Shown in pieces: positions 4,881 to 59,420 of a stretch of DNA of 64,000 nt (position 1 is its first letter; every line of letters starts with the position of its first letter). Both the position numbers and the translations under genes were made by a program. The notes beneath the pieces are model-generated. The model did not search any database. It worked only from the letters and a program-made list of their open reading frames with translations, and had not been told where the DNA came from. Source of the DNA: Defluviitaleaceae bacterium (GTDB taxonomy: Bacteria; Bacillota; Clostridia; Lachnospirales; WQUN01); assembly GCA_009784025.1 (NCBI GenBank), contig WQVK01000003.1, positions 1 through 64,000 on the forward strand, written 5' to 3'.

Positions 4881-4929
4881 GCCGCCAAATTCAGTTGGTC
4901 GGAAATTCCGACCAACTGAATTTGGCGGC
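4881..4929. repeat. family-1 palindrome downstream of trpA
   Basis: Perfect 49-nt palindrome gccgccaaattcagttggtcggaa-a-ttccgaccaactgaatttggcggc. Confidence 0.93.
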
Positions 4930-7487: not shown

Positions 7488-7853
7488 ATGTTATCAGCAA
7501 TTATAATAAGCGGAATAATTTGTACTGTTCTGCTGTTACTCATTTCATGGTTAATTTCATTTTTTAACATCGGCTTCCTCACCCTTGGTGTGGACACAGG
7601 TTTTGTGCCGCTGGTTATACTGGCGCTTGTGCTTGGGGTTGTTAACGCCCTGCTTTCGCCGCTGGTTATGGGGCTTTTCAAAAAGGCCAATGGCACAGCA
7701 CTTTTCATTATCTCACTTATAGTCAATGCAGTTTTGCTCGTTTTGGTCGCGCATTTTGTTACAGCTTTAAATATCAACTTCGTTACAGCCTTGGTTGTGG
7801 CCGCGATTCTTTCACTTGTAGCACCTACGGTAACTTCCGCCGGGAAAAACTAA
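7488..7853 (+). CDS. small multi-TM membrane protein (4-TM holin-superfamily-like)
   Basis: 121 aa, hydrophobic with about four TM segments; RBS-like AAAGGA upstream. Confidence 0.7.
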   Translation: MLSAIIISGIICTVLLLLISWLISFFNIGFLTLGVDTGFVPLVILALVLGVVNALLSPLVMGLFKKANGTALFIISLIVNAVLLVLVAHFVTALNINFVTALVVAAILSLVAPTVTSAGKN

Positions 7854-7912
7854 ACCCTCCACCGTGGGTTAGCATCAGCCTTAGCCATCAAAATTCAAAG
7901 GAGATATAAAAA

Positions 7913-8776
7913 ATGATTGTAAACGCAAAACAAATGCTAGAAACCGCCGTAAAAGGCAAATACGCAGTGGCGCAAATTAATATAAATAACCTAGAATGGG
8001 CCAAAGCCGCCATAACCACCGCCCAAGAACAAAAAAGCCCTCTAATCGTGGGTGTTACCGGCGGTGCAGCACGCTATATGGGCAGCTTTAATGTGGTTGC
8101 TGCCATGGTAAAAGCCCTGGACAGGGATCTTGGCATCACCGTGCCAGTGGCCATCCACCTAGACCACGGCAGCTACGAAGAATGCCTAGCCTGCATAGAA
8201 GCCGGCTTCACCAGTATCATGTTCGACGGCAGCCATTTTCCGTTTGAAGAAAATATGAAAAAAACCAGCGAAATGATTTCCCTGGCCCGCAAAAACGGCA
8301 TGACAATTGAGGCCGAAGTGGGCGCGATAGGCGGCGAAGAAGACGGCGTAGTAGGCTCTGGCGACATTGCAGACCCCGAAGAATGCCGTAAAATAGCCGC
8401 CCTAGGCGTGGACTTCTTAGCCGCAGGCATAGGCAATATCCACGGCAGCTACCCAGCAGACTGGCCAGGCCTAGACTTTGATGTGCTAGAGCAAGTATCC
8501 AAAGTTACCGGCGGCATCCCCCTGGTTCTGCACGGCGGCACAGGCATTGAAGAAGACATGATTAAAAAAGCAATATCCCTAGGCGTGGCCAAAATAAACG
8601 TAAACACAGAATGCCAACTAGCCTTCGCCGCAGCCACCCGCGAATACATCGAAGCCGGCCTAGACAAAAAAGACAAAGGTTTCGACCCAAGAAAGCTACT
8701 AGCCCCAGGCGCAGCGGCAATCAAAAAAGCCGTGAAGGATAAATTTGAGTTGTTTGGTTCTGTAGGTAAGGCTTAG
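7913..8776 (+). CDS. fba: class II fructose-bisphosphate aldolase
   Basis: VAIHLDHGSYEECLACIEAGFTSIMFDGSHFPFEEN, LVLHGGTGIEE, INVNTECQLAF motifs. Confidence 0.95.
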   Translation: MIVNAKQMLETAVKGKYAVAQININNLEWAKAAITTAQEQKSPLIVGVTGGAARYMGSFNVVAAMVKALDRDLGITVPVAIHLDHGSYEECLACIEAGFTSIMFDGSHFPFEENMKKTSEMISLARKNGMTIEAEVGAIGGEEDGVVGSGDIADPEECRKIAALGVDFLAAGIGNIHGSYPADWPGLDFDVLEQVSKVTGGIPLVLHGGTGIEEDMIKKAISLGVAKINVNTECQLAFAAATREYIEAGLDKKDKGFDPRKLLAPGAAAIKKAVKDKFELFGSVGKA

Positions 8777-9033: not shown

Positions 9034-9035
9034 AA

Positions 9036-9068
9036 CATCAGCTGGTCGGAAAATCCGACCAACTGATG
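9036..9068. repeat. family-1 palindrome
   Basis: catcagctggtcgga-aaa-tccgaccaactgatg. Confidence 0.85.
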
Positions 9069-9074
9069 CCGTAA

Positions 9075-13005: not shown

Positions 13006-13449
13006 AGGCCAAGTATTGGAGATTGTAGAACAATGTCCAACCCCGCCTAATAATGAGAGTATATCACCGGGAAAATTGGCGGTCAATGGCAATTGCCATA
13101 GTGTAAGGTGACTGTAACATAAAAGCCCAGCGCCAGCCAGGGCTGCTACTATACATCTCCTACATTCGTCAAAATTCCAAGCAACGTGGAGAGTTTACCA
13201 CGCATATTTTATGCGTTCAATAGATTGCCGCAACTGTAATATACATGTAACACTCTCGAACTGCCTAAAAAAACCAGAAACCTCTTGCAAACATCATGCT
13301 TTTACCAAATTTTCGTCCAATATTTTATGGCGAATTTTGGCCATGCAAAAGTTTCAGTTCTAGTATTTGATAGGACGGTTTTTTTATGCCAGGTTTTGTG
13401 ATTGTAATAGGAGTGTAACAAAGCGCTGCATTTTGGGATGCTTCAAAAC

Positions 13450-13565
13450 TATAGTGAAATAAATAAGAAACGGTCTCGCCCGAGCGGCACCTGAAACGCC
13501 GAGATAAGGCGTTTCAGGCGTTTTTGCCGCGACAGGCGAGACCGTTTCTTATTTATTTCACTATA
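13450..13565. repeat. family-4 MITE-like palindromic element (TATAGTGAAATAA..TTATTTCACTATA), full copy
   Basis: Near-perfect 116-bp inverted repeat; related copies at 30871, 32241, 40073, 53332. Confidence 0.85.
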
Positions 13566-13583
13566 GATACGCATGCGCTGCCA

Positions 13584-16967: not shown

Positions 16968-17097
16968 TTTTAATCCCATTTCAATAATTTTTTAATGAGA
17001 TGGGATTTTTTTATTGTTAAATGCTGATGGTTGGCAGGTTTTTGCTGCCAGATAACTATGTAAAAAGGGTCAGAACATTGTTTTTTATTGGAAAAAT

Positions 17098-17135
17098 GGT
17101 ACCATAATCCCATAAAAGTGGTACCGTATGGTACC
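17098..17135. repeat. family-2 GGTACC element (degenerate copy)
   Basis: GGTACC at 17098, 17120, 17130, matching positions +10/+32/+42 of the four-site copies. Confidence 0.7.
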
Positions 17136-17161
17136 ATTTTTTATCTTTTCATTAAAATTTA

Positions 17162-23230: not shown

Positions 23231-23339
23231 GGTTGCTCCTTTTTCAGTAAAACCGCCAAGGGTTTTGCCCCTGGATGCTTGGGCGAGCAGGTTGCGCAGC
23301 AACCGACCAGCCCCAGCACATCCAGAAATTTTAAAATTT

Positions 23340-23371
23340 TTCAGTTGGTCGCATTTTGCGACCAACTGAAT
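23340..23371. repeat. family-1 palindrome (CAGTTGGTCGCA..TGCGACCAACTG)
   Basis: Inverted repeat directly downstream of the asnB stop. Confidence 0.85.
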
Positions 23372-23372
23372 T

Positions 23373-30996: not shown

Positions 30997-31284
30997 CTAC
31001 TCTTGGCCAGCCTTCTGCCCAGCATCATATATCCGTTCCCTAACCTTAATCGTTACATCCTTCCGGTTCTTCCCTGGCAAGGGCATTACAAAATCCACCA
31101 GCCCCAGCATATAGTCAACACTGGTTTCGTAAAACTTTGCAAGTTTTACCAGCATGGCCACCGTGATTTCCCGCTCGCCTCTTTCGTAGCGGGCGTATAC
31201 TTGCCTATTGCATTGCAGCAATTCTGCGATTTCTTTCTTGGTTTTGCCGTGTGCGGTTCTTAGCTCTTCTAATCTTGTGTACAT
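30997..31284 (-). CDS. XRE-family helix-turn-helix regulator
   Basis: KTKKEIAELLQCNRQVYARYERGEREITVAMLVKLAKFYETSVDYMLGL. Confidence 0.9.
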   Translation of the reverse strand: MYTRLEELRTAHGKTKKEIAELLQCNRQVYARYERGEREITVAMLVKLAKFYETSVDYMLGLVDFVMPLPGKNRKDVTIKVRERIYDAGQKAGQE

Positions 31285-31301
31285 GATTGTCCCCTTTTCG
31301 T

Positions 31302-31349
31302 GGTACCGTATGGTACCATTTTTTTGTGATTATGGTACCATACGGTACC
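31302..31349. promoter_or_regulatory. family-2 GGTACC double palindrome upstream of the XRE gene
   Basis: GGTACC at 31302, 31312, 31334, 31344; 17 bp upstream of the XRE ATG. Confidence 0.65.
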
Positions 31350-31359
31350 ATTTTTTGCA

Positions 31360-32145: not shown

Positions 32146-32402
32146 AAAACCGTCAGAGGCTTCGCCTCCGACACCTCCACCGCTTTTTTGAAAAAAGCTT
32201 GGAAAAAAACTTAACATTGGAATTTAAATTGGGTAAACAATATAGTAAAACAATTCGAAATCGGTCTCGCCTGTCGCAGCAAAAACGCCTGAAACTCCTT
32301 ATCTTGACGTTTCATGTGCCGATTGTGCGAGGTCGTTTTTCATTAATTCCGCTATATGAAAGCGAGTAGAGGGTGTGCCTGCAAAGCCTCTGACTGTTTT
32401 AT
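32146..32402. repeat. family-3 element carrying a nested family-4 element
   Basis: Left half aaaaccgtcagaggcttcgcctccgacacctccaccgc; right half gagggtgtgcctgcaaagcctctgactgtttta; family-4 copy at 32241-32356 between. Confidence 0.75.
32241..32356. repeat. family-4 element nested in family-3
   Basis: TATAGTAAAACAATTCGAAATCGGTCTCGCCTGTCGCAGC...AATTCCGCTATA. Confidence 0.75.
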
Positions 32403-36344: not shown

Positions 36345-36538
36345 ACACTACCTCCTCAAATTTTTTTACGAGCATACATTAAATTTATTTTATTGGCAAG
36401 GGTTAAAACCTTTTTATTACCACAGGAGGCGTTGCTGGCTATACCTGCAAAAATTTTGATTTTTTATTGGAGAACCGGCGAATTTATGGGATTTTGGTTT
36501 GATTCTTTTATAGACAGGGGGTTTTCCGCCTTAAAAAT

Positions 36539-36586
36539 GGTACCGTATGGTACCATTTTCTCTTGTTTATGGTACCGTATGGTACC
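36539..36586. repeat. family-2 GGTACC double palindrome
   Basis: GGTACC at 36539, 36549, 36571, 36581. Confidence 0.8.
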
Positions 36587-36714
36587 ATTTTTTTATAAAA
36601 AACGCATGTTCTAGCTCATTGCAACTGCAAGAAACCCGCCAAACAAGCCGTTTTTCAAAAAATTGAATTTTTTTGGTTAAATCCGTGCAAGATATGTAAA
36701 AAAAGGAGCATCCC

Positions 36715-40072: not shown

Positions 40073-40188
40073 TGTAGCGAAATACTTATAAATCGGTCTC
40101 GCCTGTCGCGGTAAAAACGCCTGAAACGCCTTATCTCGGCGTTTCAGGTGCCGCTCGGGCGAGACCGATTTCTAATTATTTCACTATA
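40073..40188. repeat. family-4 element overlapping the V-ATPase B stop codon
   Basis: TGTAGCGAAATACTTATAAATCGGTCTCGCC...GGCGAGACCGATTTCTAATTATTTCACTATA. Confidence 0.85.
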
Positions 40189-41524
40189 ACAATGTTTTGG
40201 CAATTTCCATGGTTTGCGCCAGGCTTCTTGCGGCTTGTGGGGATTGAGCAAGGAAATCTTGCTCGAAATTTTTGCCAAAACTGAGTGTGGCTTTGTCTTC
40301 TGGGGTTAGGTCGTCTTCACCTATTATCGCGGCTAGGGCCCGGATATCTTCTACCTTGGCGTAGGTTGCGAAGAGTTTTGCTGCTATGGCGGGGTGTTCT
40401 TTGGTGGTGTAACCCTCGCCTATGCCGTCTTTCATAAGCCGGGATAGGGATGGCAGCACATTTATGGGCGGGTAGATGTTTTTTTGATGAAGGCTGCGGC
40501 TAAGCACGATTTGGCCTTCGGTTATGTAGCCGGTAAGGTCTGGTATGGGGTGGGTGATATCCTCGCCGGGCATGGTTAAAATCGGGATTTGCGTTACAGA
40601 ACCGGGCTTGTTTTTTATAATGCCGGCGCGTTCGTACAGGCTGGCTAGGTCTGAATACATATAACCGGGATAACCCTTGCGGCTTGGTATTTCCCCCTGC
40701 TGGGAAGATATTTCACGCAAGGCCTCTGCGTAGGATGTGATGTCTGTAAGTATCACCAGCACATGGTAGCCAAGGTCGTAGGCTAGGTATTCTGCGGCGG
40801 TTAAGGCCAGCCGTGGCGTGGCCAGCCGCTGAGCTGTGGGGTCGCTGGCTAGGTTCTGGAACATGATATATGCCTGGCCGCTTTCATCGAATGAATCTTG
40901 GAAAAACCGGGCGGTTTCATGGCTTATCCCCATGGCCGCAAAAACTGTGGCGAATTTTTGTGGCTTTGGCGAGTGCAATTCAGTTGGTCGCAATTTGCGA
41001 CCAACTGAATTTTGCGGCGGCATTCCGCTCATGGTGGCAATTTGCGCCGCCAAGATATCATGGGGCAGCCCATCTGCCGAGAAAATTGGCAGCTTCTGCC
41101 CACGGATTAAAGTTGCCAGGCCATCTATAGCAGAAATGCCAGTATGTATATAATCCCGCGGGTAGCTGCGCTGCACCGGGTTTATGGGCTGGCCATTTAT
41201 GCTGCGTCGCAGCTTGCTGCGGATGCGGCCAAGGCCGTCTATGGGGTTGCCAAAGCCGTCAAATTTGCGGCCAATTATTTCCGGGGAAAGTGCGACCTCC
41301 ATCTGCTGGCCGGTGAATTTTGTGGCGGCGGAAGTCAAGGAGAGACCTGCCGCGCCTTCAAAGATTAGGGCTACTACGGTGTCGCCTTCTATTTTTAGCA
41401 CCCGGCCCATGCGCGGCGGGCCGCCGGGGGAAGTAATTTTTACGGTTTCGTTGTAGCTGGCGGTTGTTACGCCTTTTAGTATGGCAATGCTGCCGTTTAG
41501 GTGATGTAGGGTTAGGTATTCCAT
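40184..41524 (-). CDS. ntpB: V/A-type ATP synthase subunit B (with in-frame palindrome insertion)
   Basis: [51 protein letters not shown]; start trimmed to ATG 41524 behind AGGAGG. Confidence 0.93.
40977..41011. repeat. family-1 palindrome inside ntpB coding sequence
   Basis: aattcagttggtcgc-aattt-gcgaccaactgaatt, encodes [12 protein letters not shown] in frame. Confidence 0.93.
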
Positions 41525-41564
41525 GGTGGCCTCCTGGGTTATGTTGTTCGGCATATGTAGCCAG

Positions 41565-48295: not shown

Positions 48296-48368
48296 GGGCA
48301 AGAATGGCGGATTTACAGGCTTCTCTTGGTTTCCATTGCTTGTAAAAGGGGCTTTTTGGCGTAAATGT

Positions 48369-48416
48369 GGTACCATACGGTACCATTTTCCCTGATTTAT
48401 GGTACCGTATGGTACC
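48369..48416. repeat. family-2 GGTACC double palindrome
   Basis: GGTACC at 48369, 48379, 48401, 48411. Confidence 0.8.
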
Positions 48417-48528
48417 ATTTTTTGTACTACTCCTATTAAAATGTCAGCATTTTTGCCGCTACTATAAACTTGAAATTCATTCAAATCCATAGTATAACAG
48501 TATTAGCTACATTTGAAGGAGATAATAT

Positions 48529-53331: not shown

Positions 53332-53448
53332 TATGGTGAAATGAATAAGAGAGGTCTCGCCCAAGTGACACCTGAAACGCCGAGACAAAGTGTCTTAGGC
53401 GTTTTTGCTGCGTTGGACGAGGACCGCTTCGGAATCTCTTTCACTATA
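53332..53448. repeat. family-4 element
   Basis: tatggtgaaatgaataagagaggtctcgcccaag...ggaatctctttcactata. Confidence 0.75.
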
Positions 53449-59385: not shown

Positions 59386-59420
59386 AATTCAGTTGGTCGG
59401 AAAATCCGACCAACTGAATT
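59386..59420. repeat. family-1 palindrome
   Basis: aattcagttggtcgg-aaaat-ccgaccaactgaatt. Confidence 0.9.

Follow-up and report, generated by a model that had tools for sequence, protein, structure and literature searches.

The window (the whole 64,000-nt stretch of DNA that was analysed) carries an exact 35-bp palindrome, AATTCAGTTGGTCGCAATTTGCGACCAACTGAATT, at 40977–41011, in frame within ntpB, the gene for subunit B of a V/A-type ATP synthase (40184–41554, minus strand), which raises the question of what this element is and how it came to lie inside a coding sequence. The first-pass annotation had placed the palindrome at exactly this position and had read it as an in-frame insertion resembling the Rickettsia palindromic elements (RPEs). 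The reading frame of ntpB is uninterrupted and matches NCBIfam NF003235 with 613 bits (cut-off 349), the palindrome being translated from the minus strand. Alignment with 21 NtpB orthologs from family and order relatives bore out the insertion, as the encoded peptide is missing from all of them and the loop between AAQIA and FAxVFAAMG is 12–15 residues shorter in most, including the closest relative (68% identity). When mapped by alignment to solved V-ATPase B subunits, as had been suggested, the extra residues fall in a length-variable stretch.

A search of the complete window with the whole 35-mer at up to three mismatches revealed four near-copies (six strand-wise matches) compared with none in 100 shuffles. 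Four copies besides the one in ntpB are intergenic; they are situated at 4888–4922, with copy-specific complementary outer arms (AGCCGCCAAATTC / GAATTTGGCGGCT), at 9035–9069 between convergent genes, at 23338–23372, 5 bp past the 3' end of a minus-strand gene, and at 59386–59420. The four had been announced as near-identical palindromes and all are present, but the copy at ~9036–9068 has one mismatched arm position (AGCTGG). An Rfam scan of the window matched no known RNA family.

In the genome holding the window (G000, a fragmented metagenome assembly of 2.14 Mb, 82% complete) the palindrome proved to be repeated as expected, forming a family of about 27–35 bp, from now on referred to as F2, with 148 copies carrying perfect 10-bp arms and none for a backward-read control pattern. 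Using a shorter core, 149 copies are found in G000 and 18 in a second genome, G042, the only two of 38 family genomes with F2, and each of them also carries a Bro-N gene with an F2-like palindrome. A contig search of 85,488 species, which may omit G000's own records, gave more than one match in a single genome only, WQVD01, a termite-gut 'Defluviitaleaceae' MAG with which G042 coincides. The fragmented metagenome assembly and gene calls from our own caller could raise the suspicion of an assembly or annotation artefact, or of chance, but the copy and control counts in effect exclude it, the flanks being distinct at well over a hundred sites and copies being found in an independent assembly.

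Perfect arms are present in 135 of the 149 copies, and single arms on their own are no commoner than expected (19 compared with 12.9 +/- 10.7), on which ground a build-up by point mutation of the DUS or Chi type was rejected; F2 is copied as a whole unit. The flanking consensus is AAATTC / GAATTT. Locations were determined in 1.91 Mb of G000, handled as stretches with genes called by a simple hexamer model of our own. About 90% of F2 copies lie between genes; of the 149, 126 do so, 18 fall within genes and 5 at the edges of contigs, the density being ~32-fold lower in genes. By class the intergenic copies divide into 87 tandem, 20 divergent and 19 convergent, and this tracks intergenic length; the 30 bp next to a gene's 5' end hold 6 copies, those next to a 3' end 23. 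The strong stem of intergenic copies is often flanked by A-tracts and T-tracts, which together with the tendency toward gene 3' ends would suit transcription terminators or RNA hairpins (3' UTR elements). This is nevertheless quite improbable, as convergent intergenic regions are not enriched beyond what their lengths predict, on which ground a terminator-only reading was rejected, and as copies are found in frame inside genes and the Bro-N version of the palindrome, described below, is nearly without G-U pairs.

Other dispersed repeats share the genome. The palindrome family GGTACCRTAYGGTACC, with sites often paired ~32 bp apart, is located in the window at 17096–17142, 31278–31356, 36515–36593 and 48345–48423, and none of its 229 sites in 1.91 Mb is genic despite open frames. 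A MITE-like repeat of ~116 bp with TATAGTRAAATAA ends (F3; 13448–13569, 32240–32356, 40080–40188 and 53332–53448 in the window) often adjoins F2 copies, and its ends number well above one hundred in 1.91 Mb. A larger MITE containing F2 was considered and rejected, the adjoining ~116-bp repeat being an independent family with its own ends.

Counting of intragenic in-frame copies, another check that had been put forward, gave the 18 genic copies, found in the genes for RNase R, an MtaB-like enzyme, NtpB, a YgiQ-type radical SAM protein, MnmE, a DUF512 protein, a kinase-like protein, the tail of an ABC ATPase, RecD2, RsmH, DnaE, a glycosyltransferase, cardiolipin synthase, Fmt, PriA, AddA, Dxs and one Bro-N protein, some of these names being assigned by reading the sequence. 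The host genes, mostly housekeeping, are conserved and intact. In 16 of the 18 the palindrome is read in one phase, giving the polar peptide SVGR-x-x-RPTE (two of the 16 belong to a GTGCC subfamily and are SVGANLAPTE-like), with Fmt and the Bro-N gene as exceptions; F2 is accordingly retained in frame in housekeeping genes almost only in this phase. All three genic copies in G042 use the other open phase (QLVA-x-CDQL). F2 is genic in 16 of 143 cases compared with 5 of 603 when eight other palindromic families are taken together (Fisher p 1e-8), and most other abundant palindrome families in G000 have zero genic copies.

Among the same hosts, the MtaB-like enzyme (L081:17178–18650), DnaE (L135:12703–16422), PriA (L142:11453–13768) and AddA (L147:7854–11507) have in common low-complexity inserts that contain a GHE(T/A)...PPQG-like peptide, as though another coding repeat had invaded them, and in the cardiolipin synthase-like protein (L138:6714–8516) a tandem GLPRGNADG-TAYASRPDSEVG repeat adjoins the F2 peptide.

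Comparison with homologs revealed two outcomes at genic sites. Relative to solved homologs, the palindrome lies within extra sequence in NtpB, MnmE, RNase R, Dxs and PriA; in MnmE this comes to ~60 residues, placed between motifs G4 and G5. In RsmH it takes up a native nine-codon stretch, and in UvrA of G042 as well as in two further G042 genes, compared with alignable homologs, it likewise sits on a native segment, the length being unchanged in each case. The idea of in-frame insertion thus holds for ntpB but not for RsmH, UvrA of G042 or the Bro-N gene, where a native segment of unchanged length is concerned. Native DNA at the RsmH site and at two G042 genes is identical to the palindrome at just 5–13 of 27 positions, on which ground a choice of replacement sites by strong similarity was rejected. 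Paralogous sites show ~48–51 bp inserted in two cases, one of them a perfect 51-bp palindrome, and the few paralogous empty sites show no clean target-site duplication. The outer arms are copy-specific, as at 4888–4922, yet complementary (mean 5.2 bases compared with 2.8 in shuffled flanks), a pattern not explained by the plain copying of an invariant unit.

The most informative fact on the origin of the sequence is the conserved palindrome inside the Bro-N gene. F2 corresponds to codons of the Bro-N motif QLVxNCxQLK, and in the C15 Bro-N gene of G000 (7584–8042) it is located where homologs show an ungapped QLV(A/T)NC(N/D)QLK. The homologous codons in Bro-N genes of other genomes form near-perfect palindromes of differing sequence, for example GAGTCGGCGAGTGTCACTCGCCGACTC and CAACTGACGATAAATTATCGTCAGTTG. 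Across 42 Bro-N genes, taken from relatives in the family and the order as well as from Bacteroidota, Campylobacterota, Alphaproteobacteria and Chloroflexota plasmids, the mean pairing was 10.4 of 12 as against 6.3 under synonymous recoding, and in 36 of the 42 the QLVxNCxQLK site is the strongest palindrome of the scanned stretch. In an alignment of 39 genes, which excludes the Chloroflexota gene and two others, unpaired in that frame, 92.3% of cells are paired and changes on both sides number 108 compared with 25.5 in shuffles, while the covariation score of 0.647 falls to at most 0.117 after sliding by one to three columns. These alignments indicate that the palindrome is conserved at the DNA level, the DNA structure being kept while amino acids change. 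Covariation is strong and almost purely Watson-Crick, only 1 of 468 cells showing a G-U type change, and since an RNA helix should tolerate many such changes the selected object is probably DNA.

Viral sequences show the same feature, in that Bro-N genes of viral contigs also carry the palindrome and the Bro-N-type pattern is matched in 18 viral contigs, and in 14 of these the match lies apart from any recognised Bro-N gene. Genes matching F2 belong to the Bro-N / anti-repressor family PF02498 and match the PADLOC candidates PDC-S13 and PDC-S04. In the Arcobacter cloacae plasmid pACLO the Bro-N gene is located between cas4 and cas1b (L350:1483–2379). A literature search gave no account of a conserved palindrome in Bro-N coding sequence.

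The Bro-N alignments also bear on whether F2 could be an ordinary non-autonomous palindrome of REP or MITE type, moved by a transposase, with Bro-N as one more host gene that was entered. The copying as a unit, the uneven distribution among genomes, the insertions in frame and the empty paralogous sites are what mobile DNA would show, and the Bro-N copy in the C15 gene bears a GG..CC variant specific to G000. Against this, Bro-N homologs of several phyla have covarying, differing palindromes at the same codons with no alignment gap, so that the Bro-N palindrome is older than F2, and PF01797, the Y1/RAYT transposase family, is not matched in G000 (82% complete) or G042, for which reason a RAYT origin was rejected. 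We therefore hold such an ordinary mobile palindrome to be rather unlikely.

Palindromic form and conservation at the DNA level would equally be expected of selected protein-binding sites, such as Bro-N operators or chromosome-organising sites, that are not mobile. Near-copies are indeed situated just upstream of the L284 Bro-N gene and upstream of the L373 Bro-N gene, the latter immediately before the ribosome-binding site. The lack of any excess of single arms and the predominance of perfect-armed copies, with no graded set of sites, do not fit this explanation, nor do the avoidance of gene starts seen above and the copies inside unrelated housekeeping genes, and it is considered unlikely.

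Descent from Bro-N genes is further illustrated by the second Bro-N gene of G000, C50, in which the palindrome CAACTAATTACAGATTGTAATAAGTTG is that of another dispersed family, F8, with 48 sites within 3 mismatches in 1.91 Mb, many of them with perfect arms. The single unpaired base in the C50 gene is where a perfect arm would make TAG. In G000, F2 thus matches the C15 gene and F8 the C50 gene, and as the F2 sequence is that of the conserved Bro-N coding palindrome, F2 and F8 would be dispersed versions of the palindromes of two Bro-N genes; their origin from these two genes is, judged from sequence, well supported. In G042 the palindrome of the C11 Bro-N gene has 5 near-copies in 170 kb and that of C37 is F2-like, while four of the six Bro-N genes show no dispersed copies in the 170-kb sample, which was centred on F2 copies.

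On balance we favour the reading that F2 is a dispersed palindrome of RPE/REP-like kind that stems from Bro-N/DdrC-like DNA-binding proteins, which may also have spread it. The Bro-N protein would recognise the palindrome within its own gene and would help copies to spread or to persist, perhaps through annealing of hairpin DNA in single-stranded form elsewhere, which would also explain native segments overwritten without change of length. The part of binder and spreader is suggested for Bro-N by a protein model (pLDDT 82, pTM 0.56) whose sole significant fold match is DdrC of Deinococcus radiodurans (E 7e-6), with low TM-scores of 0.29–0.50 overall and 0.29–0.40 by query length. DdrC is a DNA-annealing protein acting on single strands (PMC5436757) but reportedly binds DNA with no specificity for sequence or shape, which counts against Bro-N as the agent. 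Also weighing against the favoured reading are the four G042 Bro-N genes with no dispersed copies in the sample, the outer arms that vary from copy to copy while remaining complementary, and the want of a clean target-site duplication at the few paralogous empty sites. A bolder version, possible but somewhat doubtful, would make Bro-N/DdrC-like genes autonomous partners to dispersed palindromes of a new class, with each paralog seeding its own family, able to overwrite or lengthen unrelated genes in frame.

In-frame palindromes were known so far chiefly from Rickettsia and from some REP families, and the same phenomenon is now found in a gut Clostridia-type lineage, in genes of replication, repair, translation and energy metabolism and with a clear preferred phase. 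The DNA palindrome within the Bro-N reading frame is conserved across several phyla and in phage contigs, and Bro-N, listed by PADLOC among defence candidates, becomes a concrete, testable candidate for how such palindromes arise and spread. As far as the literature search goes, the Bro-N coding palindrome and its dispersed twins appear to be undescribed, and the sequence shared by the dispersed repeat and the Bro-N genes points to an undescribed link of a gene to a spreading DNA repeat.

Among known systems, RPEs are repeated palindromes that occur both between genes and, in frame, within genes for conserved proteins; they are 105–146 bp long and are specific to Rickettsia (PMC2229807). F2 resembles them in both locations, and the likeness drawn by the first-pass annotation holds for its behaviour, in frame and repeated, but not for sequence or size, since F2 is 35 bp (51 bp at the longest against an empty site), resides in a non-Rickettsia host, whose genome is akin to termite-gut Defluviitaleaceae MAGs, and matches a Bro-N motif. 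Correia/NEMIS and other MITEs are short repeats whose open frames may become joined to genes (PMC2229807); F2, unlike these, lacks terminal inverted repeats enclosing an internal region, and the few paralogous empty sites gave no clear target duplication. REPs are dispersed palindromes of 20–40 bp, mostly extragenic with some in genes including those of replication and repair, GTAG REPs being tied to a specific gene (PMC3733652). F2 is of the same size class and mainly extragenic but lacks a GTAG or CGTC tag at the stem end, and while REPs are linked to RAYT genes, the gene linked to F2 is of the Bro-N family, with the palindrome inside the reading frame and not at its flanks. As it departs from RPEs in size and host and from REPs in tag and RAYT, F2 is filed as a new, untagged family working like them. 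In-frame palindromes are tolerated in RPEs and intragenic REPs, repair genes included (PMC2229807, PMC3733652), and with its copying as a unit, mainly intergenic location and genic copies in one phase, F2 therefore works like these, as DNA that is either tolerated or selfish and that extends surface loops or rewrites them.
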